Origin: Fidelibacterota bacterium
GTDB lineage: Bacteria > Fidelibacterota > Marinisomatia > SCGC-AAA003-L08 > JACNLC01
Reading direction: 5' to 3'
Assembly: GCA_014381725.1 (NCBI GenBank)
Contig: JACNLC010000057.1
Coordinates: 1-40,480 of the forward strand
Length of the DNA stretch: 40,480 bases
Shown piece by piece: positions 4,622 to 23,487 of the stretch. Below the pieces are notes generated by a model. It saw only the letters and a list, made by a program, of their open reading frames with translations. It was not told where the DNA came from and searched no databases. How positions within the stretch are numbered: position 1 is the stretch's first letter; each line of letters begins with the position of its first letter. Both the position numbers and the translations under genes were made by a program.

Positions 4622-7075
4622 ATGAGAAAATCAATCACACTAATTACCATTTTGTTTTTGTTACCAATATTTATTTTGGCAAGCAATAATGTTAATTTAG
4701 AACAAAATAAAGTTAAAATAAGCTTATCTGCTAAAGATTATAATCTACCAAATTGGCAATATTTATCATCTGATAGAAGTTTAGCTGATATGTTTGGTGT
4801 TGCATCAACTGCACCTGTATCTGCAGGAGAAATGATTGTTCATGCAGATGTGCCTGATTCTGTATTAGAAGATGGACCTTTTAATGCATTTCTATTTTCT
4901 GGAAATGGATTGGATTCTGATTGGGCCAATGATACTGCCTACTTGATGGGTACTCCAGGTTATGAAAATACTTTTTCAGCTACGGTTTCAACTCCTGTTT
5001 CTGGTCCGTTTAATATTGGAGTTCAAGCAGTTATGACAACTGATACAGGAGAAGTAGTAATTACCCAAGCACCATTAAATGCTAATGAATCTTTTCCTGC
5101 ACCTTATTATTTGTCAATTTGTGATGAATCATTAGGAGATGAAGAAACAGGGAATTCAAATTTGGATATTGAGGATGTATCAATCAGCATTAGTGATAAC
5201 AAAATTTATGGAAAAATGACAAACGCACCTGGTGCAGGTTATCCAGTTGATGATGGATTTTTCGGACCTTGGTATCTTTATACAATTGGATTTGTAAATC
5301 CAGATGATACAGATTCTACTCTTTATGGTATGGGATATGCAGATGCAGGATTTGGAACACTATACACAGGATTATGGAAATTCCAAGATGGAGGGGATCC
5401 AGTATTCATTTCAAATATAGATCATACAATTAATGGAGATGAATTGCATATGGCTTGTAATTTAAGCGATGTTGTAAATGATCCTGATTTTGGTGTTTGG
5501 CCAAATGAATTTGAATCTTTTGGTGTTTCTGGACTTACAATGAAAGTAACAACAAGTGAGCAATTGATAGGTGATGTTACTGATGGTGTTGGCCTAAATC
5601 CTGATATTCAAAGGTTTGTTATTGGTGAGAATACAGCACCCGTTATTGTAGATCATGGATTCAATATATTATCAGAAGCTGATGGAATGTTTGCAGTTGA
5701 ATTTTATTGCGAATATCAAGATGATGATAATCACTTTCCACTATACCCTTGGCTATATATGGATGGTGCTGAAACGGGCTTAGATATGATTTCTTATGAC
5801 CATACATACTATGACGGATCAGTTTTTACCACACAAATTTCTCTTGAAGCTGGTGATCACTTCTATAATTTGAGTTTTAACGATGGGTTGAATTGGGCTA
5901 CAACTAGTACAATTCCATTTACACTGGGTTCTCAAGAAAGTACAATTTCTATACCAATGCTCAGTGGATGGAATTGGTTCTCAATTAATTTAGAGAATGA
6001 TGACCTAACTTTGAACACAGTTCTAACTACATTGGGTGCTGATGCTTCGCTCATAAAAAATCAAACCGGATTTGCAACATACTATGCAGATTTCGGTTGG
6101 TATGGGCTTGATGCTATTGATGTGAAAAGTATGTATATGATCCAAATGTTGGCTGACGGATCTTTGGAATTTGAAGGTACTCCTGTTGATTATTTGAATA
6201 CACCAATCTTATTGGCTAATGGCTGGAATTGGATTTCTTATCTTCCACAAGAATCAAACGATTTGAATGGTGCATTAGCAAATATCGGATCTAATGGAAC
6301 TTTCTTAAAAAATCAAAATAGTTTTGCAAATTATTATGATGGATTTGGTTGGTATAGTGGTAACGGAATGGATAACATGGAAGCCGGTGGTGGATATATG
6401 TTACAAGTAATTGCTGATGCAGAACTGATTTACGGAGAACCTGTAGGATTCTTAAAGTTTGAAACGGAAGTTATGGATTTACATTGGAGCGTAAATCCGC
6501 ATCAATTTGAACACAATATGGCGGTTACTATTAGTGTAGAAAATATGAACCAAAGTGATATTCTTGGTGCTTTTGTTGGAGGTGATGTCCGAGGTGTCGC
6601 AACTCCATCATATTTCCCACTTACTGATTCTTACACCATTAATATGATGGTTTATGGATATGAAAGTGAAAATATCAGTTTCAAAATTTTCAATCAGAAA
6701 ACGGGAATAGAATTAGAAATTAAAGAAAAACTAACTTTTATTCAAGATGGTATAATCGGCAATGATATTGAGCCAGTTTTTCTGAAATCTGTTTCTGAAG
6801 AAGCTGAGGATTTCTTGCTTGCTTCTGCATATCCAAATCCGTTTAATCCTATGACAACATTGAGTTACGATTTGGTTCAGGATACAGAAATCGAAATTAA
6901 AATATTTGATATCACCGGACGACAAGTTGCTGAAATATTACAAACCAACCATAAACAAAGTCCTGGACATTATGAAATAATTTGGAATGCGAATGAGTAT
7001 TCTAGTGGGATATATTTTGTTATCTTTGAAACAGAAAATGCAATTACTACACAAAAATTAGTTTTAATGAAATAA
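4622..7075 (+). CDS. Large secreted protein with modules B-B-A and type IX sorting domain
   Basis: 817 residues. It has a signal peptide (MRKSITLITILFLLPIFILA) and a strong ribosome site, AAAGGAGAG, 4 nt before the ATG. Residues about 60-430 are beta-rich and of unknown function. Residues about 439-606 hold two copies of module B (GWNWFSINLE...IKNQTGFATYYADFGWYGL and GWNWISYLP...LKNQNSFANYYDGFGWYSG). Residues about 619-721 hold module A (HWSVNPHQFEHNM...GAFVGGDVRG...YFPLTDSYTINMMVYG...IIGNDIEPV). Residues about 734-817 are a type IX sorting domain (AYPNPFNPMTTLSYDL). It is presumably exported and held at the surface or released; no catalytic motif is visible. A strong terminator follows. Confidence 0.85.
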   Translation: MRKSITLITILFLLPIFILASNNVNLEQNKVKISLSAKDYNLPNWQYLSSDRSLADMFGVASTAPVSAGEMIVHADVPDSVLEDGPFNAFLFSGNGLDSDWANDTAYLMGTPGYENTFSATVSTPVSGPFNIGVQAVMTTDTGEVVITQAPLNANESFPAPYYLSICDESLGDEETGNSNLDIEDVSISISDNKIYGKMTNAPGAGYPVDDGFFGPWYLYTIGFVNPDDTDSTLYGMGYADAGFGTLYTGLWKFQDGGDPVFISNIDHTINGDELHMACNLSDVVNDPDFGVWPNEFESFGVSGLTMKVTTSEQLIGDVTDGVGLNPDIQRFVIGENTAPVIVDHGFNILSEADGMFAVEFYCEYQDDDNHFPLYPWLYMDGAETGLDMISYDHTYYDGSVFTTQISLEAGDHFYNLSFNDGLNWATTSTIPFTLGSQESTISIPMLSGWNWFSINLENDDLTLNTVLTTLGADASLIKNQTGFATYYADFGWYGLDAIDVKSMYMIQMLADGSLEFEGTPVDYLNTPILLANGWNWISYLPQESNDLNGALANIGSNGTFLKNQNSFANYYDGFGWYSGNGMDNMEAGGGYMLQVIADAELIYGEPVGFLKFETEVMDLHWSVNPHQFEHNMAVTISVENMNQSDILGAFVGGDVRGVATPSYFPLTDSYTINMMVYGYESENISFKIFNQKTGIELEIKEKLTFIQDGIIGNDIEPVFLKSVSEEAEDFLLASAYPNPFNPMTTLSYDLVQDTEIEIKIFDITGRQVAEILQTNHKQSPGHYEIIWNANEYSSGIYFVIFETENAITTQKLVLMK

Positions 7076-7099
7076 CAAAATAAAGTAGTTTTTATTTTG

Positions 7100-7133
7100 G
7101 ATATCCCGATATGTATTTATCGGGATATCTTTT
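7100..7133 (+). terminator. Rho-independent terminator after the 4622-7075 gene
   Basis: A perfect 12-bp stem, GATATCCCGATA (7100-7111) and TATCGGGATATC (7118-7129), closes a 6-nt loop and is followed by TTTT (7130-7133). It sits 25 nt after the stop codon and separates two adjacent secreted-protein genes, so the next gene needs its own promoter. Confidence 0.85.
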
Positions 7134-7135
7134 AC

Positions 7136-7151
7136 TGTTAACATTGTTACA
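7136..7151 (+). promoter_or_regulatory. Paired TGTTA(A)CA heptamers just before the next gene
   Basis: TGTTAACA (7136-7143) and TGTTACA (7145-7151) lie 9 bp apart between the terminator and the ribosome site of the gene starting at 7167. They match the pairs upstream of 4622 and 12842, although this pair is much closer to the start codon. That position would suit a repressor site or an mRNA-level element better than an activator site. Confidence 0.3.
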
Positions 7152-7166
7152 TTGAGAAGGGAAACA

Positions 7167-10100
7167 ATGAATAGGGTATTTCTATTTCTTTTATTATCAT
7201 TTTCATTATTTGCACAAGAAAGTATTCGGTCAAACGAGTTTATTGACCCGGGAAAAGTTGATGCGTTAGCGCCATTTCCCATAGGTGAATCCTTATCGTT
7301 AATTCAGTTCGATTTACCAAATGATAGTTTGTTGCAGATTGTTGATAGTCAGATTCCAAATTTAGATTTGAACATCGGACCTGCTTCATATCAGAGGATT
7401 ATTCCGGAATCTATTTATAGAGAAATTTATCAAATTATTTCTCCGAATCTTTGGCAAGTAATTATTGAAGATTACAAAATAAATTCAAATAGTAGAGAAA
7501 ATTGGCAACAGACTCAATGGGGCGATGAAGCTGCTGGAACCAGCGAAAGTGTTGGTTACGATTGTATGTGCACGGATGGATCTGATTGTTTGGTCATTGG
7601 TTATAATGATGATTGGTGGGATCCGCTAGATTATTATGGTGATGCGTGGTGGGAGTTTGATCCACCAAATTGGGCTTCTATATCTTCAGTAAAGATTTCT
7701 GTAAAAGGAATGCAATGTGATGATTTGCCATTATCGTCAGAAAATTATTTATCAATTAAAAACAATGACTGTGGTTGGGCAAACGATCAATGGACTGCAA
7801 CACTTAGTTTGGATCATACGATTAATGGTCCTTACGAAATACCTACTGAAATGCTGGAAGAAATTTGGTGTAGTGAAAAAATTATTCCAGTGATTTGGTC
7901 TGAAGACAATTATAATGTAGAATGGGTAAAAATTGAATTTCAATATGAAAATTTACCATCAGCGCCTAATGGTTTAACAGCAGAAGTTTTAGGTAATGAT
8001 GTTCATCTTTCTTGGAATTCTCCAGAAGCTGGCTTTTTACCAGAGCCATACAATGTGATTGCAGAGGGAAGCGAATATGAAGGATCTCCGGCAATTACTT
8101 GGTCTTGGCAACACGATGACTATGAGCAAATTCTCTATACAGATTGCGTAGGTACAGAATTTTCTGCTGAATATCTATCGTGGTTGGATGACGGATATTG
8201 TGACGATGGTGAATGGGGCCTAAATTTCCTTTGCGAAGAATGGGGATGGGATTGTGGAGATTGTCCGGATTATCAAAATATGCCAGACCCTAACGGTTGG
8301 TGTGCAGAATTAAGAAGCGGTGATGATATTGTGCCAAAGGAAATATATCATCCAGTAACAACATTCGATATTCTCTATGGAAATATTCAATCTGATTTCG
8401 AACGAAGTGCCAATATGTTTGAGCTCAATTTTAATTACAATGGTACGGATTATTCGTTTCAATCGTCAGATTTATCAATTTTGGTTTATGGATTTGATAG
8501 TGGTGTAAATGTATGCGGTAATATTACTGCAATTGATATGCAATCAACACCTTGGATTTATTCCCAACCATCTCTTGATGCTTGTGCAACTACTAATGCT
8601 AGAACTTATAATCAAGAGAAGAATCTACAAAGGAATTTACTGGGTTACAATGTTTACAGAAATGGACAATTGATTGCTTCTAACATTGAACAAACTACAT
8701 TTATAGATGAAAACTTGGAGCAAGGCACTTACACTTACACAGTAACTGCAGTTTATACTTTGGGTGAATCTGAACATTCTGGTTCAGCCACGGCCGAATT
8801 GATGTTCATTGGTCCATCAGCGAATTTTTCAGTTGATATTTCTACTGGGATGGCTCCTTTTTCTGTTAATTTTATTGATAATAGTTATCCTGGGAATAGT
8901 GATATTATCGAATGGATTTGGGATTTTGGAGATGGAGCAATGGGATATGAACAATACCCAAATCATATCTATGAAGTTGCCGGAACATATTCTGTTTCTC
9001 TAACAATTACAGATGAAAATGGACAATCATCTTCAATTACTGAAGAAGATTTAATAGTTGTTGGAGGTTTACCATCAACATATCCCGATTGGGAAGTACA
9101 TATCCAAGATTATGAATTTAATTTAACTCTAGCTGGATTGCTGTATTTTGACGGAGAAGAATCTGAAGATACTTATGATTTAGTTGGTGCATTTGTAGAT
9201 GGCGAGTGCAGAGGAATCGCAAATCCAACATATTTCCCGCTAACCAATAAATATACTGTTAATTTGATGATTTATAGCAATCTATCAGAAGGAGAAACGG
9301 TTACTTTTAAAGCTTATAATTGTTCAGAAGAATGGACTTATGATATTGTTCAAGAAACAGTAGAATTTGTAGCAAACGATATCATTGGAAATGACCTAGT
9401 TCCATTTGAACTTCACGCAGTTACTAATCAGAATTATCCTGATTGGTCTGTCTATTCACCAGCATTTGAATTCAATATGTCATTAATCGGACTGCTGTTT
9501 ATTGATGGTGAAGAATCATTTGATAGCAATGACTTGGTTGGTGCATTTGTCGATGGCGAGTGCAGAGGAATTGCAAATCCAACTTGTTTCCCGATGACTG
9601 AACAATATACAGTCAATATGATGATTTATAGTAATGTTGCAACAGGTGAAGCAATATCATTCCAAGTTTACGATTATTCAAGTGATGAAGTATTTGACAA
9701 TGTTGCTGAGAGTTTAACTTTTGAAACTGATGCGATTATCGGTAATGATCTTTTTCCGTTTGAAATCCACGCTGAATATGAGAGCAACATAGTTCTGCAA
9801 AATATAGATTTTCTTACTGGCTGGAATTGGTTTTCCATTAATGTAGAATCTGAAAATATGAGTTTGAATACAGTTTTAAATTCTGTTGTGGGATATGCTG
9901 AATTCATTAAAAGTCAGACAGGATTTGCAACTTACTATGAAGATTATGGTTGGTACGGATTAGAACTTATCGATGTCAGAGAAATGTATATGATTCAAAC
10001 TTATTCTGATATATTATTTAGTTTTGAAGGATATCCTGTAGATTTTCTTGATACACCAATCGAGTTAGTAAATGGTTGGAATTGGATCAGTTATCTCCCA

Positions 10101-11003
10101 CAAACTACAAATTCTCTTAATAATGCATTGGTTAGTATCGGATCAAATGGAATATTTATTAAAAGTCAGACTGGATTTGCCACTTACTATGATGATTATG
10201 GCTGGTATGGACTTGAAGTTCTTGAACCTGGGATTGGATATATGCTTGAAATGTCGGTAGAAGATCAGTTGATTTATGGAGTACCTGAAGTCTTAGCTAA
10301 GGTTGAGACTGAGGTTATCAGTGGAGAATCGGTACTTTCAAGAAGTTTACCTGATTGGAATGTAAATGTCTTTGATTATGAGTTTACTGCAACAATGACA
10401 TCAGTAATAATTTTTATTGATGAAGAATCAACAGATGAAAATGATTTGTTAGCTGCGTTTGTAGGCGACGAGTGTCGTGGAGTAGTAAGTCCAACATATT
10501 TTCCTGTTAACGGTAGATTTACAGTAAATATTATGCTGTATGCAAATGAGAATGGTGAAACGATGACATTTAGAGCTTATGATGCATCAACAGATGCGGT
10601 TTTTGAAGAGTTGTTTGATGCTGATGGAAATAGTTATAGCTATGAGTTTATAATAAATGAAAATAGCGGTAATGATATTACCCCAATAGAATTGTACACC
10701 AATAATTTGTTAGATAATGATATATCTATTCCAAATGAATATTCGTTGAATAGTCCATATCCAAACCCATTTAATCCAACAACGGTTATTAGTTATAGTG
10801 TGCCGTTAGAGTCAAACGACCGTTTGTCTCTACAAATTTACAACATTTCTGGTCAATTGGTAGAAACATTGGTAAACGAGCAATTAGAAGCTGGTTATCG
10901 TCAAGTAATTTGGAATGCAGATAATCAACCAAGCGGATTGTATTTCGTTAGAATGACTACTGGAGATTATGTAAGTACACAGAAGATGTTGTTGTTGAAA
11001 TAG
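7167..11003 (+). CDS. Giant secreted multidomain protein (Fn3-like, PKD, modules A-A-B-B-A, type IX sorting domain)
   Basis: 1278 residues from the ATG at 7167, chosen because it follows GAGAAGGG and begins a clean signal peptide (MNRVFLFLLLSFSLFAQ); a TTG 15 nt upstream in the same frame is less likely. A fibronectin type III-like region starts near residue 264 (APNGLTAEVLGNDVHLSWNS) and resumes after an insert of about 200 residues (LGYNVYRNGQLIAS). The insert has a Cys-rich Notch-repeat-like segment (CDDGEWGLNFLCEEWGWDCG). A PKD domain lies at about 548-631 (WDFGDG). Then come module A at about 638-751 and 756-869, two module B copies at about 874-1041, module A at about 1060-1177 and the sorting domain at about 1197-1278. 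This architecture suits a surface adhesin or binding protein; no enzyme motif was seen. Confidence 0.85.
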   Translation: MNRVFLFLLLSFSLFAQESIRSNEFIDPGKVDALAPFPIGESLSLIQFDLPNDSLLQIVDSQIPNLDLNIGPASYQRIIPESIYREIYQIISPNLWQVIIEDYKINSNSRENWQQTQWGDEAAGTSESVGYDCMCTDGSDCLVIGYNDDWWDPLDYYGDAWWEFDPPNWASISSVKISVKGMQCDDLPLSSENYLSIKNNDCGWANDQWTATLSLDHTINGPYEIPTEMLEEIWCSEKIIPVIWSEDNYNVEWVKIEFQYENLPSAPNGLTAEVLGNDVHLSWNSPEAGFLPEPYNVIAEGSEYEGSPAITWSWQHDDYEQILYTDCVGTEFSAEYLSWLDDGYCDDGEWGLNFLCEEWGWDCGDCPDYQNMPDPNGWCAELRSGDDIVPKEIYHPVTTFDILYGNIQSDFERSANMFELNFNYNGTDYSFQSSDLSILVYGFDSGVNVCGNITAIDMQSTPWIYSQPSLDACATTNARTYNQEKNLQRNLLGYNVYRNGQLIASNIEQTTFIDENLEQGTYTYTVTAVYTLGESEHSGSATAELMFIGPSANFSVDISTGMAPFSVNFIDNSYPGNSDIIEWIWDFGDGAMGYEQYPNHIYEVAGTYSVSLTITDENGQSSSITEEDLIVVGGLPSTYPDWEVHIQDYEFNLTLAGLLYFDGEESEDTYDLVGAFVDGECRGIANPTYFPLTNKYTVNLMIYSNLSEGETVTFKAYNCSEEWTYDIVQETVEFVANDIIGNDLVPFELHAVTNQNYPDWSVYSPAFEFNMSLIGLLFIDGEESFDSNDLVGAFVDGECRGIANPTCFPMTEQYTVNMMIYSNVATGEAISFQVYDYSSDEVFDNVAESLTFETDAIIGNDLFPFEIHAEYESNIVLQNIDFLTGWNWFSINVESENMSLNTVLNSVVGYAEFIKSQTGFATYYEDYGWYGLELIDVREMYMIQTYSDILFSFEGYPVDFLDTPIELVNGWNWISYLPQTTNSLNNALVSIGSNGIFIKSQTGFATYYDDYGWYGLEVLEPGIGYMLEMSVEDQLIYGVPEVLAKVETEVISGESVLSRSLPDWNVNVFDYEFTATMTSVIIFIDEESTDENDLLAAFVGDECRGVVSPTYFPVNGRFTVNIMLYANENGETMTFRAYDASTDAVFEELFDADGNSYSYEFIINENSGNDITPIELYTNNLLDNDISIPNEYSLNSPYPNPFNPTTVISYSVPLESNDRLSLQIYNISGQLVETLVNEQLEAGYRQVIWNADNQPSGLYFVRMTTGDYVSTQKMLLLK

Positions 11004-11089
11004 TAGAAAATAAACAATAAACAACGAACAGACGAAATAAAATAAGTTCGTAACTTCGGCTTGTCCGCCAACGTTTTTCAGGTGGTTGG

Positions 11090-11111
11090 TTTCGTTGTGA
11101 ACCTTAAAACA
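11090..11111 (+). repeat. 22-bp direct repeat, copy 1
   Basis: Identical over 22 bases to 11510-11531 (starts TTTCGTTGTG, ends CCTTAAAACA). The copies are 420 bp apart. They may mark a duplicated or deleted segment; the origin is unknown. Confidence 0.7.
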
Positions 11112-11509
11112 TTGCCAGAAGTAGGATTACCACGCAGAGCGGGGCAGGCAGGATTAATAGATAACAGGATTTATCTCAATTATTAGTTTAGTTACTTGTT
11201 CTTTTTCTCTTGACAGAAAAAGAACCAAAAAGGTCAAGGCAACACTCAATTTGCTAAAACAAATACTTTCATTCCTAAAAGAAATAAACTTGTCCGTCAG
11301 TTGACGGACTTCAGACAGCATTTCTTTTTAAACGGAATTCAACTATTGTTTTTATACCCAAATTGAGTAAGGCCAAATTCAATAATAATACTATAATTTA
11401 GTAACAATAAGGTGAGCTTGCACCCTTGTCTTGACATAAACTGAACATCGATTTTATAATAAAGTAAATCGGACTTGTAAAGATCGATACTATTCGATGT
11501 ATTCGGCGT

Positions 11510-11531
11510 TTTCGTTGTGAACCTTAAAACA
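11510..11531 (+). repeat. 22-bp direct repeat, copy 2
   Basis: Second copy of the 22-base repeat at 11090-11111. It lies about 60 bases before the truncated signal-peptide reading frame. Confidence 0.7.
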
Positions 11532-11590
11532 ATTCTTGCTACTAACAAAACTAACAATGTAAATTCACTCATCGAAAACACAATTTAATT

Positions 11591-11695
11591 ATGAAAAGTT
11601 TCAAAATTATATTATTATTATTTACCATTTGGTGCGTTTCCGTTTCAGCACAAGAAACTTCTGCACCTATTTTTATATATCCAATCATAACTTGA
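11591..11695 (+). pseudogene. Severed signal peptide of a lost secreted protein
   Basis: The ATG at 11591 opens a 34-codon frame: MKSFKIILLLFTIWCVSVSA, then QETSAP, then a TGA at 11693-11695. The first 20 residues are a textbook signal peptide with a VSA|QE cleavage site, but no mature protein follows. This is most simply the 5' stump of a secreted-protein gene whose body was deleted or replaced by the FISUMP gene 23 nt downstream. A real small secreted peptide is possible but less likely. Confidence 0.5.
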
Positions 11696-11718
11696 CAAAC
11701 TTAAAAGGAGAACCAAAA

Positions 11719-12402
11719 ATGAAAAAAAGTAGAATAAAACTCGTAACAATAATAGTGTTAGCAGTAGTAATGCTCGTTAGCTGTAATGGCAAAACAGGCA
11801 CAATGACCGACATTGACGGCAACATTTATCAAACTATACAAATTGGCAACCAGACCTGGATGGCGGAGAACCTAAAAGTAACCCATTACCGCAATGGTGA
11901 TGCAATCCAAACAGGTTATAGTAATTCAGAATGGGAAGATTTATACGATACAGAAACAGGAGCATACTGTGTTTACGATGACCAAGAGAGCAATGCAGAT
12001 ACTTATGGTTATTTATATAATTGGGTTGCCGTAGATGATACAAGAAACATAGCTCCAGAAGGTTGGCATATACCCACAGATGAAGAATGGCAGATATTGG
12101 TTGATTTCTTGGGTGGAAGCAGTGTAGCCGGTGGAAAGATGAAAGAGACCGGCACAGTGCATTGGAACAGCCCAAACACAGGTGCAACAAACGAGAGCGG
12201 TTTTACAGCCCTTCCTGGTGGTTACCGTAGCTACGACTATGGTAATTACAACGATATGGGTAACACCGGCTGTTTTTGGTCTTCTACGGAGTACGATAGT
12301 ACCAATGCGTGGACCCGGAAGCTGTATTACTATAGTTCAGAAGTCCCCCGCTACTACTACTGTAAGAAGCACGGTATTTCTGTCCGTTTAGTTCGCGATT
12401 AG
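11719..12402 (+). CDS. FISUMP (Fib_succ_major) domain lipoprotein
   Basis: 227 residues from the ATG at 11719, which follows AAAAGGAGAA. An N-terminal signal with lipobox LVSC (Cys near residue 19) predicts a lipoprotein. The rest is a Fib_succ_major paralogous domain: TDIDGNIYQTIQIGNQTWMA, ENLK, WHIPTDEEW, FTALPGGYRS, CFWSSTEYD and a terminal HGISVRLVRD. The family has a C-type-lectin-like fold and is abundant in FCB bacteria; members are known among targets of diversity-generating retroelements. The last 40 residues (NAWTRKLYYYSSEVPRYYY) occupy the position that varies between family members. The gene is visibly richer in G and C than its neighbours and sits in an otherwise gene-poor island, suggesting transfer. 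Confidence 0.88.
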   Translation: MKKSRIKLVTIIVLAVVMLVSCNGKTGTMTDIDGNIYQTIQIGNQTWMAENLKVTHYRNGDAIQTGYSNSEWEDLYDTETGAYCVYDDQESNADTYGYLYNWVAVDDTRNIAPEGWHIPTDEEWQILVDFLGGSSVAGGKMKETGTVHWNSPNTGATNESGFTALPGGYRSYDYGNYNDMGNTGCFWSSTEYDSTNAWTRKLYYYSSEVPRYYYCKKHGISVRLVRD

Positions 12403-12541
12403 ACTATTTGACTACTTGTCCCGTGGAATACGACGTTTACCCAGTGCAATGCTTGTCCTGTAGGGAAGAATGACCGTATCAGGGCAAAGCATATTACACC
12501 AGGGAAGGAGTAAATTCCACTGGGATTTGACAATTTGACTA

Positions 12542-12611
12542 TCTCGACGCTTTTTGTCGAGACCCCGTCAGGTTGCGGGGTTTGACTATTTATCCCGCAT
12601 TTATGCGGGAT
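12542..12611. repeat. Three consecutive hairpins downstream of the FISUMP gene
   Basis: TCTCGAC/GTCGAGA (12542-12548 with 12556-12562), ACCCCG/CGGGGT (12562-12567 with 12576-12581) and ATCCCGCA/TGCGGGAT (12592-12599 with 12604-12611). The last is followed by TGAAAATATATTTG rather than a clean T tract, so a terminator role is uncertain. Stem-loops just downstream of a variable gene end are also a feature of retroelement-diversified targets. Confidence 0.6.
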
Positions 12612-12742
12612 TGAAAATATATTTGTTTAGGTTTTACAATCCCGCCCGCCTGCTAAAGTGAAACGGCGGACTACATATCTATAGAATTTGTTTAACTCTT
12701 TTATAACCAAATAGTTCATCTCTCAACCACAACACCAAAATA

Positions 12743-12759
12743 TGTTACAACTTGTTACA
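12743..12759 (+). promoter_or_regulatory. Paired TGTTACA heptamers upstream of the C25 peptidase gene
   Basis: Two exact TGTTACA copies at 12743-12749 and 12753-12759, 10 bp apart and 83 bases upstream of the ATG. This is the clearest example of the paired motif also seen before 4622 and 7167. Confidence 0.4.
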
Positions 12760-12841
12760 CTTTAATTAAAGGAAAAGCACCCGATAAACAGATATATTTA
12801 CCACTACAATTTTAATTAAATCAAATAAGGAGATAAGTAAA

Positions 12842-15800
12842 ATGAAGAGAAGCACTTTAATAATAGTGATTATATTTTTAGTCCAAACTATATTTGCAGG
12901 AACATTAACTCAAACTTACAGTTTTGAAAAACCTCAGCTGAAAACTGAAAATGGTCTTACGGAAATATTGTTTGATAATTGTAAAAATATGGGTGAAGAA
13001 GGTACGCCTTTACTTCCACAGTTTGCAGCAGATATTCTTTTGCCTCAGAATCAGGAAATTGTAAATGTTACGATTATTGAAAAAACATTTTATCCGGGTT
13101 CAGAAAACATCAGAATTAAACCAGCAAGTGGACATGTACCACTTTCCTTGAAACCAGATATTGTTAAACAAGTAATACCAAACGAAGATATTTATCTTTC
13201 AGAAACAGATTATCCATTAGAAACAATTAAATCTATGGATACTCATTTTCTATCTGGCCATTCAATTGGTTCATTTACAATCTGTCCTGTTGTGTATCAT
13301 CCATCTGAAAATAATGTAGAATTCATAAAGGAAATTACTGTAGAAATCGAAACTCAATCTACTGCAAGAGCACTAGATGCAGAGAAATTTCTCAGGAATT
13401 CAGTTGGTGTAAATAGTCGTATTCATAAGATTATAGACAATCCTGATATGTTAAGTTCTTACACATATCAACAACCAACAAGAACTGAAGAGTACGATTT
13501 GTTAATCATCTCAAATAATACGCTATTACCAGCATTTGCAGATTATATTGATTTTAAGGAATCAACGGGATTTGCCGTTGCTACAATTTCTACTTCTGAT
13601 ATTTATAGTCAGTTTGCTGGACAGGATAATCCAGAAAAAATCAGAAATTGCATCATCAGTTATTATACTGAATATGGTATTAGCTATGTGATTTTAGGTG
13701 GTGATTCAGATACAAATAACTCATCTGATAATATTGTTCCTCATCGTGGTTTGACCGCAGATCCAGGAAGTGGTTATGAAGATACAAATATCCCTGGTGA
13801 TATTTATTATGCAGGTTTAGACGGAAATTGGAACGATGACGGTGATAACCGTTGGGGAGAACCAGGTGAAGCTGATTTATACGAAGAAGTTGCAGTAGGA
13901 AGAATTTGTGCAGACCAAGCTATTGAAATTACAAATCACACATACAAATTGAGAATGTATCAAGATCAGCCGGTTGTTGCGGATATCGAAAAATCACTAA
14001 TGGTTGGTGAACATCTTGGTTTTGGTGGAGTTTCTGAATATGCTGCAAATTCAAAAAATGAAGTAGCTTATGGTAGTTCAAACCATGGTTATACAACAGT
14101 TGGAGTTTCTGAAAATTTTAGCATTGACGAATTGTATGAAGATCCATCTTATGGTGGTTACAGTTGGCCAGCAAGTTCCCTCTATTCACAATTTAATAGT
14201 ACAGGAGTAAATCTACTTAATCACCTCGGACATTCAAGTCCGGATTACAACATGAAGTTGTATAACTCAGATTTAACTACAAACAATTTTAGTAATGATG
14301 GTATTACTCGTGGATTTGTGATTGGTTATTCACAAGGGTGCTATCCTGGTTCATTCGACAATTATCATTACAATGGTTATTATATGGACGAAGATTGTTT
14401 TGCTGAAAAATTCACTCAACTCGAAACAGGTGAAGTTGCGTTTATTTGTAATTCGCGCTATGGATGGGGAGAATGGGAAAGTACAGCTGGTCCATCGCAG
14501 TATTTTGATAGACAATTTTTTGATGCTATCTTCGATGAAGATATTACCAAAATTGGTGAAGCAAACGGTGATTCTAAAGAAGACAATGTTGCATACATTA
14601 ACGAAAGTGGTGTTATAAGATTTTGTGCTTATGAACTGAACTTATTTGGTGACCCATCAATGGATATTTGGACAGCAACTCCAACTAATATTTCTGCTAA
14701 CTATCCAGCAAGCGTGCCAATTGGTTCAAGCACGATAGCAGTTCAAACAGGAACTGAAGGTGCAAGAATTGCGATTTTACAAAATGATGAGTTGATTGGT
14801 AGAGGTGTTGCAAATTCCAGCGGAAACGCTACAGTACAGTTGTTTAGTTCAATTAGTACAGCACAACCTCTTGATATTTCAATTATTGCTCATAATAAAA
14901 ATAGACATTACGGAACTATTTTTGTTGTTTCTGACCAACCATATGTGATTTTTGATAATTACGAAATTAATGATGGAAATAATGGCGTTGCGGAATTTGG
15001 CGAAGATATAACACTTGATATGTCTTTAAATAATGTTGGGAATCAAAATGCTTACAGCGTTAATGTTACAATTTCGACTGATGATGAATTTGTAACTATT
15101 ACTGATAATTCAGAAAATTATGGTACAGTTTCGGCTGAAAGTGTTTTGACCATCAATAACGCATTTGCATTTAGTGTTTCTAATGACATTCCAGACCAGC
15201 ACATAGTAAACTTTGATTTAACTGCTACTGGTACTGCTCGCGATACTTGGGATTCATTCTTTAGTATTACTATAAACGCACCAGAACTTTCTGCTGGAAA
15301 TATGATTGTTGATGATAGTGCTGGTGGTGATGGAAATGGTAGATTAGATCCAGGTGAAACTGCTCAGATAACAATTCCAACAACTAACTCTGGTAATGCG
15401 AATTCACCTTCAGCTTCTGCATCATTTACTTCTGCAAGTGATTACATCACAATCGTTGATGGATTTTTTGACTTTGGAGTAATAGAAGCTGGAACAACTG
15501 AAAATGCAACATTTAGTATCAGCGTTTCTGAAGATGCCCCAATAGGGACAGCAGTAAGTTTTGGATTTGTTGTAGAAGCTGGAAGTTATGGATTTGATCA
15601 ATCCTTCGGAACTTCAATAGGTTTAGTTCTTGAAGATTTTGAGACGGGTGATTTTTCACAATTTCCTTGGGAAACCAATTGGGAGATTTCGGGCGATGCT
15701 TATGAAGGAAGTTACTCTGTAAAATCAACTAATAATTCTGACAATACAACTTCTGAATTATCAGTTCAGTTGGAAGTTACTAGCAATGGTACTATTTCAT

Positions 15801-18592
15801 TTTTTAGAAAAGTGTCATCTGAAGCGAACTACGATTATCTATATTTTTATATAGATGGTTCTTTGCAAGATCAATGGGCTGGAGAAGTACCCTGGGGAGA
15901 AGTATCTTACCCAGTTACTTATGGTACACATACTTTTACTTGGGAATACTATAAAGACCAATCTGTTTCCAATGGTTCTGACTGTGCTTGGGTAGATTAC
16001 ATTATTTTCCCACCTGTTGGACCGGGACCTGAAATTAGTGTAAATCCAGCTAGTTTTATTGAAACGATTCCAGAAAATACAATTGAAACTAGAAACTTGA
16101 ATATTGCAAATACTGGTGGCGGAGTATTGAATTATAGCATTGATATTGAAGAAACTACTTCCGGGAGAACTAGTTTAAATGATGTTTGTATTATTGATGA
16201 ACTTACTGAAGAACAAAAACGAGCTGACTATTTAACTAAAAAAGATAGAATTGCTACAGAAGGTTTAGAAATAGATAAATCTATTACTAAGTCTGAGGTT
16301 AATCATGAATATGCTCCAACCTCTAGATCAACTGATGTAACAATTATTTGTGATGGTGGAGATTGGCAGTACGAAGTTGGTTGGGCTTTAATTGCTCCAA
16401 ATGGAGAAACTGTTGCAACTGGAAGTGCACCTTATAGTGGTGATGCTTCGCTGGATAATGGAATATATACTGTGAATGCTACAGATTCTTATGGTGATGG
16501 TTGGAATGGTAATTATTTATCAATTGTAGATACTGATGGAACTGTATATTTGAATTACACTTTGGATTATGGCTCAAACGGATCAACATCATTTGAAGTT
16601 GATGCTTTACCTCCAATAACTTGGATGACTTTAAGTGAAGATAACGGAGAAGTTGATGGTGGAACATCTGAAAATATAACAGTCACTTTCGATACAAATG
16701 GACTTACATTAGGCGCAACTTATACTGCAAATATGATAGTAGATTCACCTGCAGGTTCAGTTGTTGTTCCTATTTCATTGACTATTGGAGACGCTGGTCC
16801 TCAGTCAGAACTTTCTGTGAATGTAGGTTCTGTCGATGAAGAATTATCTATTAACCAAACTGCAACTGTAGATTTTGAAATCTCAAATGTTGGAGAAGTT
16901 GGATCTACTTTGAGTTATGAACTATCATTAGATGGTGTTCCTGACTGGGCATCGGTTAATCCTTCAAACGGTGAATGTGGTTATGGCGAATCAGATGTCA
17001 TTGAAGTAACATTCTTATCTGATGGATTAGAACCCGGGACTTACAATAGCGAAATTACTATTTTATCTAATGGTGGTTCAGCAAATCTTCCCATTTCATT
17101 AGTTGTACATGACTGTGTTAATTGCCCAGATTGGGAAGTTTATATTCCAGAATTTGAGTACAATTTAACATTAACTGGATTATTATTCATTGAAGGTGAA
17201 GAATCGTTTGACGAAAACGATATGGTTGGTGCATTTGTTGGTGATGAGCTTAGAGGAGTTGCATCTCCAAGCTATTTCCCATTAACTGGCAGTTATACTG
17301 TAAATTTAATGATTTACAGCAACGAAAGTAGTGGAGAAACTGTAACATTTAAAGCTTATGATTATTCTCAAGATGTAATATTTGAAAATGTGATTGAGAC
17401 AATAAATTTTGTTGCGAACGACATTATTGGCAATGATTTGGTTCCATTTGAGTTCCACGCATCAGGTTCTATGGTGCAGAATCTTGATTTCATAGTGGGT
17501 TGGAATTGGTTTTCACTTAATATTGTATCAAGTGATATGGCTATGAATTCTGTTTTAGCTTCACTTGGTAGTGATGCAACATTCATTAAAAACCAAAGTG
17601 GTTATGCTAACTATTACGATGATTTTGGTTGGTATGGACTTGATACTTTTGAAATCACAAGTATGTATATGATTGATGTTACAACTGCAAGTACATTAAC
17701 AGTTGAAGGAAGTCCTGTAGATCCAATGATGGAAATCTCATTAATGGAAGGTTGGAACTGGGTTTCCTACTTACCACAACTTACTGTTGATATTAACTTT
17801 GCTCTTGAGAGTATTGAGCCAAATGGAACATTCATTAAAAATCAAACTAGTTATGCTAACTACTATGATGATTTTGGTTGGTATGGTATAGAATCTATGA
17901 ATCCAGGTGATGGGTATATGCTTCTGATGAATACTGAAGATGTGTTAGTTTATAACATTCCAGTTGGACTTGTAAAAGTTGATAACAATGAAGAAACTAA
18001 AGAAACTAAAGAACTTCATTGGAGTGTTAATCCACATCAATTTGAATACAATATGGCAATAACAGCAGAGCTAGAAGCAGGAAGCCAATTAGCTGTATTT
18101 GTTGATGACGAAGTTAGAGGAGTAGTAGAATCAACATACTTCCCATTAACAGACTCATACACAGCAAACTTGATGGTTTATGGAAACGATGGAGAAGAAC
18201 TGAGTTTTAGAGTTTATCAAGAAGCTAACGATACAGAACTTGATATACTTGATCATCTAACCTTTGAAGTTAACGGAATAATAGGAAACGATATAGAACC
18301 AGTTTTATTAAGAACATTATCACTTCCTGAAGACTATAGTTTATCACAGAACTATCCAAATCCGTTTAATCCGAGTACAACGATTAGCTACCAACTCCAA
18401 GCTACCAGTTCCGTGTTACTTGCTATTTACAATGTAAACGGTCAATTAGTAGAAACTTTGGTAACTGGACAATTGGATGCAGGTTATCATTCGGTTGTAT
18501 GGAATGCAGATGATTTTGCATCTGGAGTTTATATTGTAAAACTTACAGCCGATGGTTTTACTCAAACACAAAAGATGCTGTTAATGAAATAG
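12842..18592 (+). CDS. Giant gingipain-type C25 cysteine peptidase with type IX sorting domain
   Basis: 1916 residues with a signal peptide (about 1-19), a C25 propeptide-like region (about 25-190) and a peptidase C25 domain from about 215 (YDLLIISNNTLLPAF) to about 605 (LNLFGDPSMDIW). The likely catalytic pair is His464 (NHLGHSSPD) and Cys500 (YSQGCYPGSFD), spaced much as in gingipains. Then follow CARDB-like beta domains (about 650-920), a MAM or jelly-roll-like domain (about 925-1058), a DSYGDGWNG domain near 1215, BACON-like domains to about 1420, module A (about 1427-1540), two module B copies (about 1543-1711), module A (about 1724-1824) and the sorting domain (about 1837-1916). It is expected to be secreted as a zymogen and work at the surface on proteins. 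A terminator follows. Confidence 0.9.
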   Translation: MKRSTLIIVIIFLVQTIFAGTLTQTYSFEKPQLKTENGLTEILFDNCKNMGEEGTPLLPQFAADILLPQNQEIVNVTIIEKTFYPGSENIRIKPASGHVPLSLKPDIVKQVIPNEDIYLSETDYPLETIKSMDTHFLSGHSIGSFTICPVVYHPSENNVEFIKEITVEIETQSTARALDAEKFLRNSVGVNSRIHKIIDNPDMLSSYTYQQPTRTEEYDLLIISNNTLLPAFADYIDFKESTGFAVATISTSDIYSQFAGQDNPEKIRNCIISYYTEYGISYVILGGDSDTNNSSDNIVPHRGLTADPGSGYEDTNIPGDIYYAGLDGNWNDDGDNRWGEPGEADLYEEVAVGRICADQAIEITNHTYKLRMYQDQPVVADIEKSLMVGEHLGFGGVSEYAANSKNEVAYGSSNHGYTTVGVSENFSIDELYEDPSYGGYSWPASSLYSQFNSTGVNLLNHLGHSSPDYNMKLYNSDLTTNNFSNDGITRGFVIGYSQGCYPGSFDNYHYNGYYMDEDCFAEKFTQLETGEVAFICNSRYGWGEWESTAGPSQYFDRQFFDAIFDEDITKIGEANGDSKEDNVAYINESGVIRFCAYELNLFGDPSMDIWTATPTNISANYPASVPIGSSTIAVQTGTEGARIAILQNDELIGRGVANSSGNATVQLFSSISTAQPLDISIIAHNKNRHYGTIFVVSDQPYVIFDNYEINDGNNGVAEFGEDITLDMSLNNVGNQNAYSVNVTISTDDEFVTITDNSENYGTVSAESVLTINNAFAFSVSNDIPDQHIVNFDLTATGTARDTWDSFFSITINAPELSAGNMIVDDSAGGDGNGRLDPGETAQITIPTTNSGNANSPSASASFTSASDYITIVDGFFDFGVIEAGTTENATFSISVSEDAPIGTAVSFGFVVEAGSYGFDQSFGTSIGLVLEDFETGDFSQFPWETNWEISGDAYEGSYSVKSTNNSDNTTSELSVQLEVTSNGTISFFRKVSSEANYDYLYFYIDGSLQDQWAGEVPWGEVSYPVTYGTHTFTWEYYKDQSVSNGSDCAWVDYIIFPPVGPGPEISVNPASFIETIPENTIETRNLNIANTGGGVLNYSIDIEETTSGRTSLNDVCIIDELTEEQKRADYLTKKDRIATEGLEIDKSITKSEVNHEYAPTSRSTDVTIICDGGDWQYEVGWALIAPNGETVATGSAPYSGDASLDNGIYTVNATDSYGDGWNGNYLSIVDTDGTVYLNYTLDYGSNGSTSFEVDALPPITWMTLSEDNGEVDGGTSENITVTFDTNGLTLGATYTANMIVDSPAGSVVVPISLTIGDAGPQSELSVNVGSVDEELSINQTATVDFEISNVGEVGSTLSYELSLDGVPDWASVNPSNGECGYGESDVIEVTFLSDGLEPGTYNSEITILSNGGSANLPISLVVHDCVNCPDWEVYIPEFEYNLTLTGLLFIEGEESFDENDMVGAFVGDELRGVASPSYFPLTGSYTVNLMIYSNESSGETVTFKAYDYSQDVIFENVIETINFVANDIIGNDLVPFEFHASGSMVQNLDFIVGWNWFSLNIVSSDMAMNSVLASLGSDATFIKNQSGYANYYDDFGWYGLDTFEITSMYMIDVTTASTLTVEGSPVDPMMEISLMEGWNWVSYLPQLTVDINFALESIEPNGTFIKNQTSYANYYDDFGWYGIESMNPGDGYMLLMNTEDVLVYNIPVGLVKVDNNEETKETKELHWSVNPHQFEYNMAITAELEAGSQLAVFVDDEVRGVVESTYFPLTDSYTANLMVYGNDGEELSFRVYQEANDTELDILDHLTFEVNGIIGNDIEPVLLRTLSLPEDYSLSQNYPNPFNPSTTISYQLQATSSVLLAIYNVNGQLVETLVTGQLDAGYHSVVWNADDFASGVYIVKLTADGFTQTQKMLLMK

Positions 18593-18671: not shown

Positions 18672-19790
18672 ATGTGTTTAAGATCACTTTATAAAATATT
18701 AAGTAGTATTATTCTATTACTGGGCTTGATGTTTAGTCAACTCATAGATAGGGATATACCTTTTGGGTACTACGATGGTACTGATGGATTAACAGGAGAA
18801 ACTTTGAGATCTGTACTTCACCAAATTATTGATAATCACAATTCACAGAGTTACGGTAATCTACACGAATTGTTTGAAGATACTGATGCAAAATCCAACA
18901 ATACAGTTTGGGATATGTATTCTGATAATCCCGGAGGAAATCCTCCATATACTTATCATTTCACTGGTTCAGATCAATGCGGTAATTATGGTGGAGAAGG
19001 TGATTGCTATAATCGTGAGCATTCTTGGCCCTCTAGTTGGTTTAATAACGGTTCTCCAATGAAATCAGATTTATTTCATCTTTATCCTACTGATGGTTAT
19101 GTGAACGGAATGAGATCAAATTATCCGTTTGGGGAAGTGCAAAATCCAAATTGGACATCCCAAAATGGAAGCAAACGGGGTACAATGTCTTCCTATGGTT
19201 ACTATGGGACGGTTTTTGAACCAATTGATGAATACAAAGGTGATTTTGCGAGGACTTACTTTTATATGTCCACTCGGTATTATAATGAAGATAACAGTTG
19301 GGATGAAAACGATATGGTAGATGGTGCAGATCTGAAAGATTGGGCTGTTGATATGTTAATTGATTGGCATGAAGCAGATCCTGTAAGTGATAAAGAAATT
19401 GATAGAAACGATGCGATATATAGTATACAATACAACAGAAATCCATATATTGATCATCCTGAATTTGTAGATTATATTTGGGGATCTCAAGTGGTTGAAA
19501 ACAGTGATCAATACTCAATACTCAATTATCAATTAGTAAACGCTTATCCAAATCCATTTAATCCTGTAACAACGATAGGTTACCAACTACCAGCTCTCAG
19601 CTCAGTGCTACTTGCTGTTTACGATGTGAATGGACAATTAGTTGAAGAATTAGTAAGCGGTAGCATGATGCAGAATGCAGGTTATCTTTCAGTTACTTGG
19701 AACGCAGATAATCAACCAAGTGGAATTTATTTTGCAAAATTACAAGTTGGAGAATTTACTAAAACTAATAAAATGGTATTAATAAAATGA
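18672..19790 (+). CDS. Secreted endonuclease I with type IX sorting domain
   Basis: 372 residues. A signal region (LSSIILLLGLMFSQ) is followed by an endonuclease I domain (EndA/Vvn/NucM family) over about residues 25-275. Family motifs visible are NREHSWPSSWF, with His117 as the presumed general base, and DLFHLYPTDGYVNGMRSNYPFGEV. These enzymes are metal-dependent, non-specific DNases that degrade extracellular DNA for nutrients or biofilm turnover. Residues about 290-372 are a type IX sorting domain (LVNAYPNPFNPVTTIGYQL), so the enzyme is likely held at the cell surface. The stop overlaps the next start by 4 nt. The sorting domains of these two neighbours are almost the same, so one may have been copied from the other. 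Confidence 0.9.
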   Translation: MCLRSLYKILSSIILLLGLMFSQLIDRDIPFGYYDGTDGLTGETLRSVLHQIIDNHNSQSYGNLHELFEDTDAKSNNTVWDMYSDNPGGNPPYTYHFTGSDQCGNYGGEGDCYNREHSWPSSWFNNGSPMKSDLFHLYPTDGYVNGMRSNYPFGEVQNPNWTSQNGSKRGTMSSYGYYGTVFEPIDEYKGDFARTYFYMSTRYYNEDNSWDENDMVDGADLKDWAVDMLIDWHEADPVSDKEIDRNDAIYSIQYNRNPYIDHPEFVDYIWGSQVVENSDQYSILNYQLVNAYPNPFNPVTTIGYQLPALSSVLLAVYDVNGQLVEELVSGSMMQNAGYLSVTWNADNQPSGIYFAKLQVGEFTKTNKMVLIK

Positions 19791-20812
19791 AAAATAATTG
19801 GTCATTATTCAAGAGTAGTATTTTTAGCATTTGTTTTTTTGTTTTTATAAATGCTCAATCATCCCATTTTCAATTTACTTCAACAGATAATTTCGAACCT
19901 ATATTTGTTAATGAAATTAATTCTGAAGAGTTTACTCCTGAAATTGGTGTTGACGAGGTTGCCGTTTTCGATGGATTTCTTTGTGTTGGAGCGACACTAA
20001 TAATGGAAGATGTTACTCAAATATCCGCTTGGGCGGATGATGGTTTCACTTCACAAATTGATGGATTTATTCAGGGAAGTCTAATGAGTTTTAGATATTA
20101 TGACTCATCAGAAAATAAAGTATGGATTGTGTCTGAAGTAGAGTTCATTGAAGGTGGTGGATGGGATACTAGCGGAAGGTTTGTATTAAATGCAATTTGT
20201 GGTGTTAATTTAAACTTATTTACCGAAGCCCCAAACTTTATAACTAGCACTCCAATTGAATGGATTGATATTTTAGCAACTCCTGAATATTCTTATACCA
20301 TTGTAGCAGAACATCCAAATAGCGAAACTCTATCATTTATCAAGACTACGGCCCCCGCTTGGTTAACATTAACTGATAATGGTGATAATTCGGCTTTATT
20401 ATCTGGTATCCCCTGGAGTGTAGGAGAATATTCAGTCGTAATAACAGTCACAGATAATTCTAGTGATATTTCTTTTGAAAACCAGTATTTTACAATTACT
20501 GTAAATGAAGGAAGCGCAGAAAACAATACTCAATTATCAGTTATCAACTATCAATTAGTAAACGCATATCCAAATCCATTTAACCCCAAAACAGTTATTA
20601 GTTATCAACTCCAAGCTTCAAGCTTAGTGCTAGTTGATATCTATAATATAAATGGACAATTAGTTGAAGAATTAGTAAGCAGTAGCATGATGCAGAATGC
20701 AGGTTATCATTCAGTTACTTGGAACGCGGATAATCAACCAAGTGGAATTTATTTTGCAAAATTACAAGCAGGTGATTTTACTCAAACTCTGAAATTGTTA
20801 TTATTGAAGTAA
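19787..20812 (+). CDS. Small secreted Ig-like protein with type IX sorting domain
   Basis: 341 residues. After a signal peptide (SIFSICFFVFINAQ) comes a domain of about 120 residues with VDEVAVFDGFLCVGA and SFRYYDSSENKVWIV, a pattern similar in style to module A (VGAFVxxExRG). Then comes a putative Ig domain (He_PIG-like: TAPAWLTLTDNGDNSALLSGIPWSVGEYSVVITVTD), and a sorting domain at about 258-341 (LVNAYPNPFNPKTVISYQL). It overlaps the endonuclease gene by 4 nt (ATGA), so translation is coupled. No enzymatic motif was seen; a surface binding or scaffold role is a guess. Confidence 0.8.
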   Translation: MKNNWSLFKSSIFSICFFVFINAQSSHFQFTSTDNFEPIFVNEINSEEFTPEIGVDEVAVFDGFLCVGATLIMEDVTQISAWADDGFTSQIDGFIQGSLMSFRYYDSSENKVWIVSEVEFIEGGGWDTSGRFVLNAICGVNLNLFTEAPNFITSTPIEWIDILATPEYSYTIVAEHPNSETLSFIKTTAPAWLTLTDNGDNSALLSGIPWSVGEYSVVITVTDNSSDISFENQYFTITVNEGSAENNTQLSVINYQLVNAYPNPFNPKTVISYQLQASSLVLVDIYNINGQLVEELVSSSMMQNAGYHSVTWNADNQPSGIYFAKLQAGDFTQTLKLLLLK

Positions 20813-22264: not shown

Positions 22265-23487
22265 AGAAATTTCTAATATTTGCTGTAATTAATTTTTTAT
22301 TAATATCATCGTTTTGTCTTGCTAATCAAGATTCATCAACCGATGATATGGTTAATGTTTACATTGATTGTGATATGTGTGATTTAGATTATTTGCGACG
22401 CAGTGTTACTTTCGTCAACTATGTTCGCGATCGTGGGGATGCTGATGTACATATCGTGGAATCTTTTCGTCCTACAGCAAGCGGTGGCGAGGAATTTACT
22501 TTAACTTTTTATGGGCAAAAAAACTATAAAGTCGTAAATGATACTCTTAAATATATTCTACAAGAAATGGATACAGAAGAAACTGACAGAAACGAATTTG
22601 TAAGAGTTGTTAAATTAGGACTAATACAGTATGTAAATTCTACTCCAATTGCAAAGGATATTAAAATTGAATATTTAGCTCCGATTAAACCAATAATTAT
22701 AGAAGATCCTTGGGATAGTTGGGCATTTAGAATTGGGATTAATGGTAATGCAAATGGACAAAAATCCTCTCAGTCATCTAATTCTTGGACATCATTATCT
22801 GTTGAAAGGATTACGGAAGAATGGAAATTCCAAACTTCGTTACATGCGAGTTTTAACGATTATTTAGATCGAGATTATAATAACTATTCTTCTTCTTTAA
22901 GTCGAAGTATCTGGGGTATGTTGGTCAAGAGTTTGGGAGAACACTGGTCTATTGGTGGTTACGGTTTAGTAAATTCTTCAACTTATAGCAATACGGAAAT
23001 TTCATATTTAGCTGGACGTGCAGTAGAATATAGTATTTTCCCTTATTCTGAATCGAGCACGCACGAATTAATCATTCAATACAAAGTTGGAGCATCGTAC
23101 TATAACTACATTGATACGACAATTTTCGAAAAGGTAGAAGAGTATTTATCTGGCGAATCTATCACATTGGAATCGCAGTTTGTACAACCATGGGGATCAA
23201 CTTTTATACAAATGGAAGCTCAACATTATTTTCACGATTTTACAAAAAACAAATTCAGCATATATGCAAATCTATCATTAAATCTGTTTAAGGGATTTTC
23301 ACTAGATTTATCAGGTAAATATTCACTAATTAATGATCAGTTATCAGTTTCTGAAGATGATCCAGGTGCTCAGGAAATATTTTTAAATCAACGCCAACTT
23401 TATACAAATTATGATTATTTTGTCAATATCGGACTAAGCTATTCTTTCGGCTCAATTTACAATAATGTGGTAAATACACGGTTTTGA
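22261..23487 (+). CDS. Outer-membrane beta-barrel protein with a conserved N-terminal periplasmic domain, unknown function
   Basis: 408 residues with a signal peptide (MKKFLIFAVINFLLISSFCLA). Residues about 28-145 form a compact domain (VNVYIDCDMCDLDYLRRSVTF, VNYVRDRGDADVHIV, an FTLTFYGQ strand) that I recall from uncharacterised proteins of FCB and related phyla. The rest alternates polar and aromatic strands (SFRPT, WAFRIGINGNANG, LYTNYDYFVNIGLSYSFG) and ends in Phe, as expected for an outer-membrane barrel. It overlaps cca by 4 nt and precedes the PorD-like gene, so an envelope-assembly role is conceivable. The function is unknown. Confidence 0.75.
   Translation: MKKFLIFAVINFLLISSFCLANQDSSTDDMVNVYIDCDMCDLDYLRRSVTFVNYVRDRGDADVHIVESFRPTASGGEEFTLTFYGQKNYKVVNDTLKYILQEMDTEETDRNEFVRVVKLGLIQYVNSTPIAKDIKIEYLAPIKPIIIEDPWDSWAFRIGINGNANGQKSSQSSNSWTSLSVERITEEWKFQTSLHASFNDYLDRDYNNYSSSLSRSIWGMLVKSLGEHWSIGGYGLVNSSTYSNTEISYLAGRAVEYSIFPYSESSTHELIIQYKVGASYYNYIDTTIFEKVEEYLSGESITLESQFVQPWGSTFIQMEAQHYFHDFTKNKFSIYANLSLNLFKGFSLDLSGKYSLINDQLSVSEDDPGAQEIFLNQRQLYTNYDYFVNIGLSYSFGSIYNNVVNTRF

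Follow-up and report, generated by a model that had tools for sequence, protein, structure and literature searches.

Two unnamed modules, A and B, reused in secreted proteins of a Fidelibacterota bacterium

For many T9SS cargo proteins, annotation goes no further than the sorting tail and the catalytic domain. In the window analysed here (the whole stretch of 40,480 nucleotides, contig C87 of a 2.18 Mb Fidelibacterota assembly that is 98% complete), three proteins carry two further modules, A and B, close to the tail, which raises the question of what these modules are and what they do. Fidelibacterota is given in PMC11652737 as the phylum formerly named SAR406 or Marinimicrobia. A preliminary description of the locus held that the two modules were unnamed, that they were reused in three giant proteins always in the order B-B-A-sorting domain, and that this fixed block on different front ends might be a shared surface-display or ligand-binding unit.

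Modules A and B in the window proteins

The features of the three proteins are listed below.

4622..7075, + strand: protein 1, unknown front end, B-B-A, T9SS tail (ORF, 817 aa)
5945..6196, + strand: protein 1, module B copy 1 (profile i-Evalue 6e-43)
6203..6454, + strand: protein 1, module B copy 2 (profile 5e-36)
6482..6787, + strand: protein 1, module A (profile 7e-47)
6830..7063, + strand: protein 1, T9SS type A sorting tail (PF18962 45.9 bits, cut-off 27, residues 737-814)
7152..11003, + strand: protein 2, PKD-containing front end, A-A-B-B-A, T9SS tail (ORF, 1283 aa; PKD_4 6.5e-15)
9084..9416, + strand: protein 2, module A copy 1 (profile 6e-56)
9438..9770, + strand: protein 2, module A copy 2 (profile 1e-54)
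9798..10049, + strand: protein 2, module B copy 1 (profile 6e-42)
10056..10286, + strand: protein 2, module B copy 2 (profile 4e-38)
10350..10700, + strand: protein 2, module A copy 3 (profile 7e-50)
10758..10988, + strand: protein 2, T9SS type A sorting tail (PF18962 37 bits, residues 1203-1279)
12842..18592, + strand: protein 3, C25 (gingipain-type) peptidase, Ig-like domains, A-B-B-A, T9SS tail (ORF, 1916 aa; Peptidase_C25 2.1e-51, Propeptide_C25, Peptidase_C25_C)
13502..14665, + strand: protein 3, C25 peptidase domain (PF01364 175.8 bits, cut-off 23, residues 221-608)
17126..17458, + strand: protein 3, module A copy 1 (profile 3e-55)
17477..17728, + strand: protein 3, module B copy 1 (profile 8e-42)
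17726..17968, + strand: protein 3, module B copy 2 (profile 1e-37)
18017..18316, + strand: protein 3, module A copy 2 (profile 3e-43)
18353..18577, + strand: protein 3, T9SS type A sorting tail (PF18962 36 bits, residues 1838-1912)

A T9SS type A tail scored above the Pfam cut-off in all three proteins, and the corresponding TIGR04183 scores (NCBIfam, cut-off 23) were 41.1, 40.7 and 44.8 bits for proteins 1, 2 and 3; hydrophobic N-termini are also visible. Besides Por_Secre_tail, protein 1 had no Pfam match up to an E value of 10, and at 817 aa it is not giant, so the size given to all three in the preliminary description did not hold for this one.

Both modules proved real, A spanning about 105 residues and B about 83. 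The single A copy of protein 1 retrieved all other A copies at E values of 8.6e-36 to 6.8e-15, and its B1 and B2, each used singly, retrieved all other B copies at 1.6e-32 to 3.9e-12, such that every single-copy search recovered the rest at 3.9e-12 or better. Against 603 decoys made by shuffling or reversing the three proteins, the same three queries gave zero matches at E <= 10. The profiles also bore out the A copy numbers first proposed (one, three and two), the tandem B pair in each protein, and the extra A copies upstream of B in two proteins, one of them the C25 peptidase identified by PF01364 (A-A-B-B-A in protein 2 and A-B-B-A in protein 3). Alignment of the six window copies of each module yielded 20 invariant columns for A and 18 for B. 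Among 44 members, the best-kept positions of B are G-W-N-W (40 to 43), the K and Q of K-x-Q (41 each), W (42), G (42) and Y (41), and those of A are R-G (41 and 44) and two F (41 and 44). The K-x-Q and Trp/Tyr positions of B are conserved across phyla. Moreover, B1 of protein 1 is closer to the B1 of the other two proteins (1.6e-32 and 4e-30) than to its adjoining B2 (1.1e-16), which suggests that the pair is probably an old unit that moves as a whole.

Several other features of the window were recorded. The segment 11150-11726, between proteins 2 and 3, is repeated in the genome, with 95% identity to an inverted copy at L055 and 92% to L049. The T9SS-tail protein at 19787-20809 contains a faint A-like stretch (10.6 bits, 27 residues), close to which lies a D-E-V-A-V-F-D...C-V-G motif, and this protein may be a member of a wider A superfamily. 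A match to DUF4835, the family of the T9SS protein PorD, is present at 23484-24389 (50 bits, cut-off 25).

The proposal that the modules were unnamed was examined with profiles and databases. No convincing match to A or B was obtained in Pfam, NCBIfam, PHROGs or PDB sequences, and membership of a described domain family is rejected within these four libraries. When 44 diverse members of each module were compared with Pfam at E 10, scattered weak matches appeared, each family being hit by at most four of the 44 members (best E 0.0095); they included DUF6666 for A (E 0.0095, one member) and Lipocalin_9 for B (four members, best 0.017). An unnamed PHROG matched over a B of protein 3 at 0.034, and a PDB spindle protein that a small A profile had found at 0.0099 was gone with the larger one, the larger A and B profiles giving nothing below E 0.26 against PDB sequences. 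At E <= 10, models of starch-binding CBMs had no sequence match among the 44 A members, and RCK_C/TrkA_C models had none among the 44 B members. Gingipain adhesin-domain families were absent from the Pfam matches up to E 10 of the three window proteins. No publication on A or B was found in the open-access literature by motif, titles and abstract openings, and Rfam at the gathering score gave no match in three sources.

More distant candidates were also considered. A generic GWNLIS-type pair of P0005 was dropped as a relative of B (best match E 0.036 over 29 residues). A phage origin was rejected, as two pattern scans of viral contigs (20 and 286 candidates) gave no confirmed relative and tblastn of B-B against 50,697 phage records gave hits in 15 of them, none better than E 2 and all from Campylobacter phages. 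A structure match in BFVD to a marine phage 'putative hemin binding protein' had an E value of 8.4e-4 and a TM score of 0.53 on the query. A two-peptide-pattern search of genome contigs led to confirmation of 2 of 113 stretches.

Reuse in the host genome and in other genomes

The host genome contains 37 A matches (including a fragment of 22 residues), 22 BB matches (one halved by a contig end and two distant) and 61 T9SS tails; 15 stretches were taken for a scan of modules and tails. Among 21 BB pairs, 15 are followed by A, four end the protein and two are of the distant type. A tail motif lies within 60 residues in 14 of the 15 BB-A cases, and the remaining one (L053) runs off its contig. The order B-B-A-sorting is thus kept in the three window proteins and in the 14 proteins of the genome, but 'always' was too strong, since four of the 21 BB pairs end the protein with neither A nor tail. 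With 61 tails against 14 proteins that have BB-A, the block sits on a minority of tail proteins. The number of A copies in BB proteins varies from one to five, while B is paired; a single scoring B was seen in one ORF that a contig end cuts and in one ORF from other genomes.

The idea that a constant C-terminal block is joined to varying front ends was confirmed by these 14 proteins and by the A-BB-A order in other Fidelibacterota families and in Bacteroidota. A Pfam scan covered 13 of the 14, all except the AAAA-BB-A protein at L045. Three front ends are C25 and two are M14, and the following occur once each: trypsin-like, PAD_porph, beta-helix with cadherin-like, LTD, CarboxypepD_reg repeats and PKD. 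In two of the 13 only the tail was above the cut-off, and spacer-like domains (PKD, BACON, HYDIN-type Ig) lie upstream in several. In a quick tree built from 53 BB pairs, with 30 of 50 inner branches open, the copies of this genome required three label changes, compared with a mean of 16.9 for shuffled labels (0 of 500 as low). This clustering suggests a lineage-specific expansion of the genome's own copies, as expected of a cassette spread over many front ends. Near-identical DNA was also seen within the genome: a 902-base stretch shared by L048:6527-7428 and L056:3300-4201 (99.9% identical) overlaps a distant BB pair, and L048 has a 920-base tandem at 99.8%.

The four proteins that end in BB comprise two whole ORFs, namely L046:5479-6672, which has a PKD domain and two CxxCH motifs by eye, and L046:6850-8073, which has an Omp28 match, together with L054:4160-4717, truncated on its 5' side by a contig end, and L043:9166-9606, with an in-frame stop upstream. 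On contig C76, two tailless BB-ended proteins stand in a row with a BB-A-tail protein. Three of the four genes have a common 3' end that begins about 118 bases upstream of the stop and extends about 80 bases beyond it; in each block and pair compared, 39 to 49 of 50 bases agree. This likeness suggests that gene ends have been copied from one front end to another. Just past the stop of each of the three, within the shared block of about 200 bases, there is a hairpin with exact 11-base arms, the outer arms pairing along 15 bases (L046:5407-5455, L046:6778-6826 and L054:4088-4136). Allowing three mismatches or fewer, the 2.18 Mb genome has three occurrences of this hairpin, all behind BB-ended genes. 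A reading as an integron attC site was dropped, as the R-box pattern, compared by eye, fails in two of the three copies.

Across 245 Fidelibacterota genomes, 61 have B, 52 have A and 46 have both (Fisher p 6e-30, kinship ignored), with 15 of the 61 B genomes lacking A at the threshold used. Among 345 genomes from the phylum of the Bacteroidia locus L002, examined with wider profiles, B occurred in 28, A in 11 and both in 10 (p 2e-11, kinship again ignored). T9SS type A tails are present in 243 of the 245 Fidelibacterota genomes, so a link between modules and tails within this phylum is uninformative. In loci of other genomes, A comes after 32 of the 35 BB pairs and before 28 of them, shares that are not unbiased because the loci were chosen by module match. 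A relative at locus L001, recorded as Candidatus Neomarinimicrobiota, was placed in Fidelibacterota by the tree tool. In the Bacteroidia genome of L002 (G245), eleven open frames of 2,137-2,217 aa have L002-like A copies, eight of them on contig C61.

The neighbours of 12 A-BB-A loci from eleven other genomes were surveyed. In five of these loci (the first locus of G501, G548, G231, G224 and G211), a protein of 2,100-2,410 residues that ends in A-BB-A is followed by a four-A protein, whose gene is directly adjacent except in G501, where one one-A gene lies between. In four loci (G062, G152, G437 and G589) the next gene has one A, at the G276 locus the next two genes have two A each, and in two loci (L083 of G501 and L092 of G394) no A gene follows. 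The adjoining of A-rich and A-BB-A genes suggests that their products cooperate.

On the upstream side, the gene before the A-BB-A gene is tail-fibre-like in the two loci scanned, with Collar and Gp10_C at L085 and Peptidase_S74 at L090. These phage-tail-fibre-like proteins (L085:1360-2919 and L090:823-2304) have an apparent signal peptide. The layout of putative tail-fibre-like gene, A-BB-A gene and A-bearing neighbour was noted in Fidelibacterota and Bacteroidota, also at L082, L084, L086, L087, L088 and L089; in the printed sequence, the first residues of the upstream gene look alike by eye at L082, L083 and L088. The A-BB-A-ended proteins of L087 and L088 have LamG domains.

Predicted folds and candidate roles of the block

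Structures were predicted from five rows each for the A-B-B-A of protein 3 (pLDDT 71, pTM 0.44) and for B-B (pLDDT 73.6, pTM 0.68). A was modelled as a beta-sandwich and the B repeats as mixed alpha/beta, the first in the order strand-strand-helix-strand-strand-strand. In VIA-align, amylolytic enzymes or starch-binding chains made up 33 of the 50 rows listed for A-B-B-A by our own count (Z 5.3-6.5, with many redundant CGTase entries), including CBM26 6b15 (Z 6.5, 83 aligned, 2.8 A), CBM41 2j72 (Z 6.1) and beta-amylase 1veo (Z 6.1), and the top row was the non-CBM 6fwv (Z 7.1 at 23.8 A). For B-B, six of the seven best rows were the MthK RCK ring, a putative potassium channel related protein, BusR, KtrAB and AspT (twice), at Z 3.4-4.6 over 55-68 residues, all six being chains that contain RCK_C/TrkA_C domains. 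All A and B rows lie below Z 8, the level under which the tool calls matches common, and the fold likeness of A to starch-binding CBMs and of B to RCK_C is accordingly weak. Foldseek of B-B against PDB gave no match below E 0.26, and five Foldseek rows below E 0.001 for A-B-B-A were set aside (TM <= 0.14 on the query, rmsd > 20).

T9SS tails are described in PMC10202324 as directing export, with PorU cleaving them and being able to join cargo to A-LPS. If this is valid here, B-B-A would be the part of the protein nearest to the anchor. A PorU-like sequence is present in the host genome (C28:66859-68637, 311 bits, E 2.9e-93), under the curated NCBIfam cut-off of 420. A sequence of events may be proposed in which the protein would be exported by T9SS, a PorU-like sortase would cut the tail and fix the new C-terminus to the surface, and the block, a predicted pair of alpha/beta B domains with one or more predicted beta-sandwich A domains beside the sorting tail, would then lie between anchor and enzyme. 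There it might bind a surface glycan, a neighbouring surface protein or a particulate substrate, and such binding would hold peptidases and other enzymes at their place of action. B-B-A may thus be a binding or retention accessory cassette of T9SS cargo, placed like the adhesin domains of the large gingipains, to which it would be analogous in function; this is the reading we prefer, at slightly less than an even chance. It is in line with the 14 proteins that carry the block behind unrelated front ends, with the co-occurrence of A and B across genomes, with the clustering of this genome's own BB copies and with the PorU-like sequence. Of the two roles proposed at the outset, surface display did not stand as the job of A and B, being the known role of the T9SS tail (61 tails, 14 with BB-A), while ligand binding would fit a paired B and polar and aromatic positions that are conserved.

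The main rival, which we consider rather unlikely, is an inert stalk that lifts the catalytic part off the outer membrane like stacked Ig-like domains. The location of B-B-A between front end and tail in 14 tail-bearing proteins, the beta-sandwich predicted for A and the spacer-like PKD, BACON and HYDIN-type Ig domains upstream in several of them are all consistent with a stalk, and A, which resembles a common type of beta-sandwich, might be a spacer. However, B is paired and does not form a variable stack, its K-x-Q and Trp/Tyr positions are conserved across phyla, and some BB-ended proteins have no tail, hence nothing to be lifted from. Paired B, variable A number and conserved polar and aromatic positions together favour binding over a plain stalk. 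Several points weigh against the preferred reading: the four of 21 BB pairs that end the protein imply that the cassette is not tied to anchoring by a T9SS tail, the PorU-like sequence scores under its cut-off, the tree has thin support, the co-occurrence statistics ignore kinship, and some B genomes (15 of 61) have no A at the threshold applied. These same tailless proteins argue against the least probable reading, in which B-B-A would be part of a secretion signal read by T9SS or its shuttle; the block does lie directly before the sorting tail, but most of the 61 tails are found on proteins other than the 14 with BB-A.

Docking and a specific ligand were also weighed. B-B might dock like a plug into the A of its own protein or of a neighbour, with A-rich scaffolds and BB-ended passengers following a logic like that of cohesin and dockerin. 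The row of tailless BB-ended proteins on C76, the four-A protein one or two genes after the A-BB-A protein in five of 12 loci, and the co-occurrence of A and B across genomes speak for this improbable alternative. On the other hand, A and B mostly share one chain, so that docking is not needed to account for their co-occurrence, A was missing at the chosen threshold from 15 of the 61 B genomes, and the next gene has no A at L083 and L092. Extended to a whole undescribed surface docking system of T9SS-bearing phyla, in which A-rich scaffolds would receive enzymes, cytochrome-like and Omp28-like proteins through B-B plugs with or without a tail, the idea is likewise given a low chance. Very unlikely, in our estimate, is that A would bind alpha-glucans (starch or glycogen) as a member of the CBM20/26/41 fold group and that B-B would be an RCK_C-type pair that senses ligands outside the cell: the counts of 33 of 50 and six of seven best rows point in this direction, but all Z scores are below 8, the top A-B-B-A row (6fwv) is not a CBM, no sequence match to either family was found, and the two models reach pLDDT values of 71 and 73.6.

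A and B are real and widespread modules, unnamed in the libraries searched, and of an ordinary kind, namely accessory modules of T9SS cargo. With 21 BB pairs in one genome and an order kept in two phyla, they offer a handle on how extracellular enzymes are arranged in Fidelibacterota (SAR406), and naming them would annotate parts of many hypothetical proteins. The tailless BB-ended proteins provide a direct test case for binding or docking by BB.

Comparison with known systems

With a tail in three of three window proteins (PF18962/TIGR04183), the proteins most resemble T9SS type A cargo. T9SS tails are described in a 2023 review (PMC10202324) as restricted to Bacteroidota, whereas they occur here in 243 of 245 Fidelibacterota genomes; Por tails in SAR406 have already been reported in PMC5596340. 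In Black Sea MAGs, Marinimicrobia among them, C25 has likewise been reported as part of the extracellular peptidase set (PMC8359207).

With regard to folds, predicted A has a beta-sandwich similar to those of starch-binding CBM20/26/41 at Z of about 6, no sequence similarity having been found. The predicted B repeats are weakly alike to RCK_C (TrkA_C) at Z 3.4-4.6, again with no sequence match. RCK_C domains are cytoplasmic regulators of ion transporters.

A close parallel in layout is found in the large gingipains RgpA and Kgp, which consist of a C25 peptidase, adhesin domains and a T9SS tail. Protein 3 resembles them in having a propeptide, a C25 domain, a C25 Ig-like domain and a type A tail, with extra domains between enzyme and tail. 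It differs from them in that these extra domains are A and B, which have no Pfam match, and in that the same block is also carried by proteins that are not peptidases.
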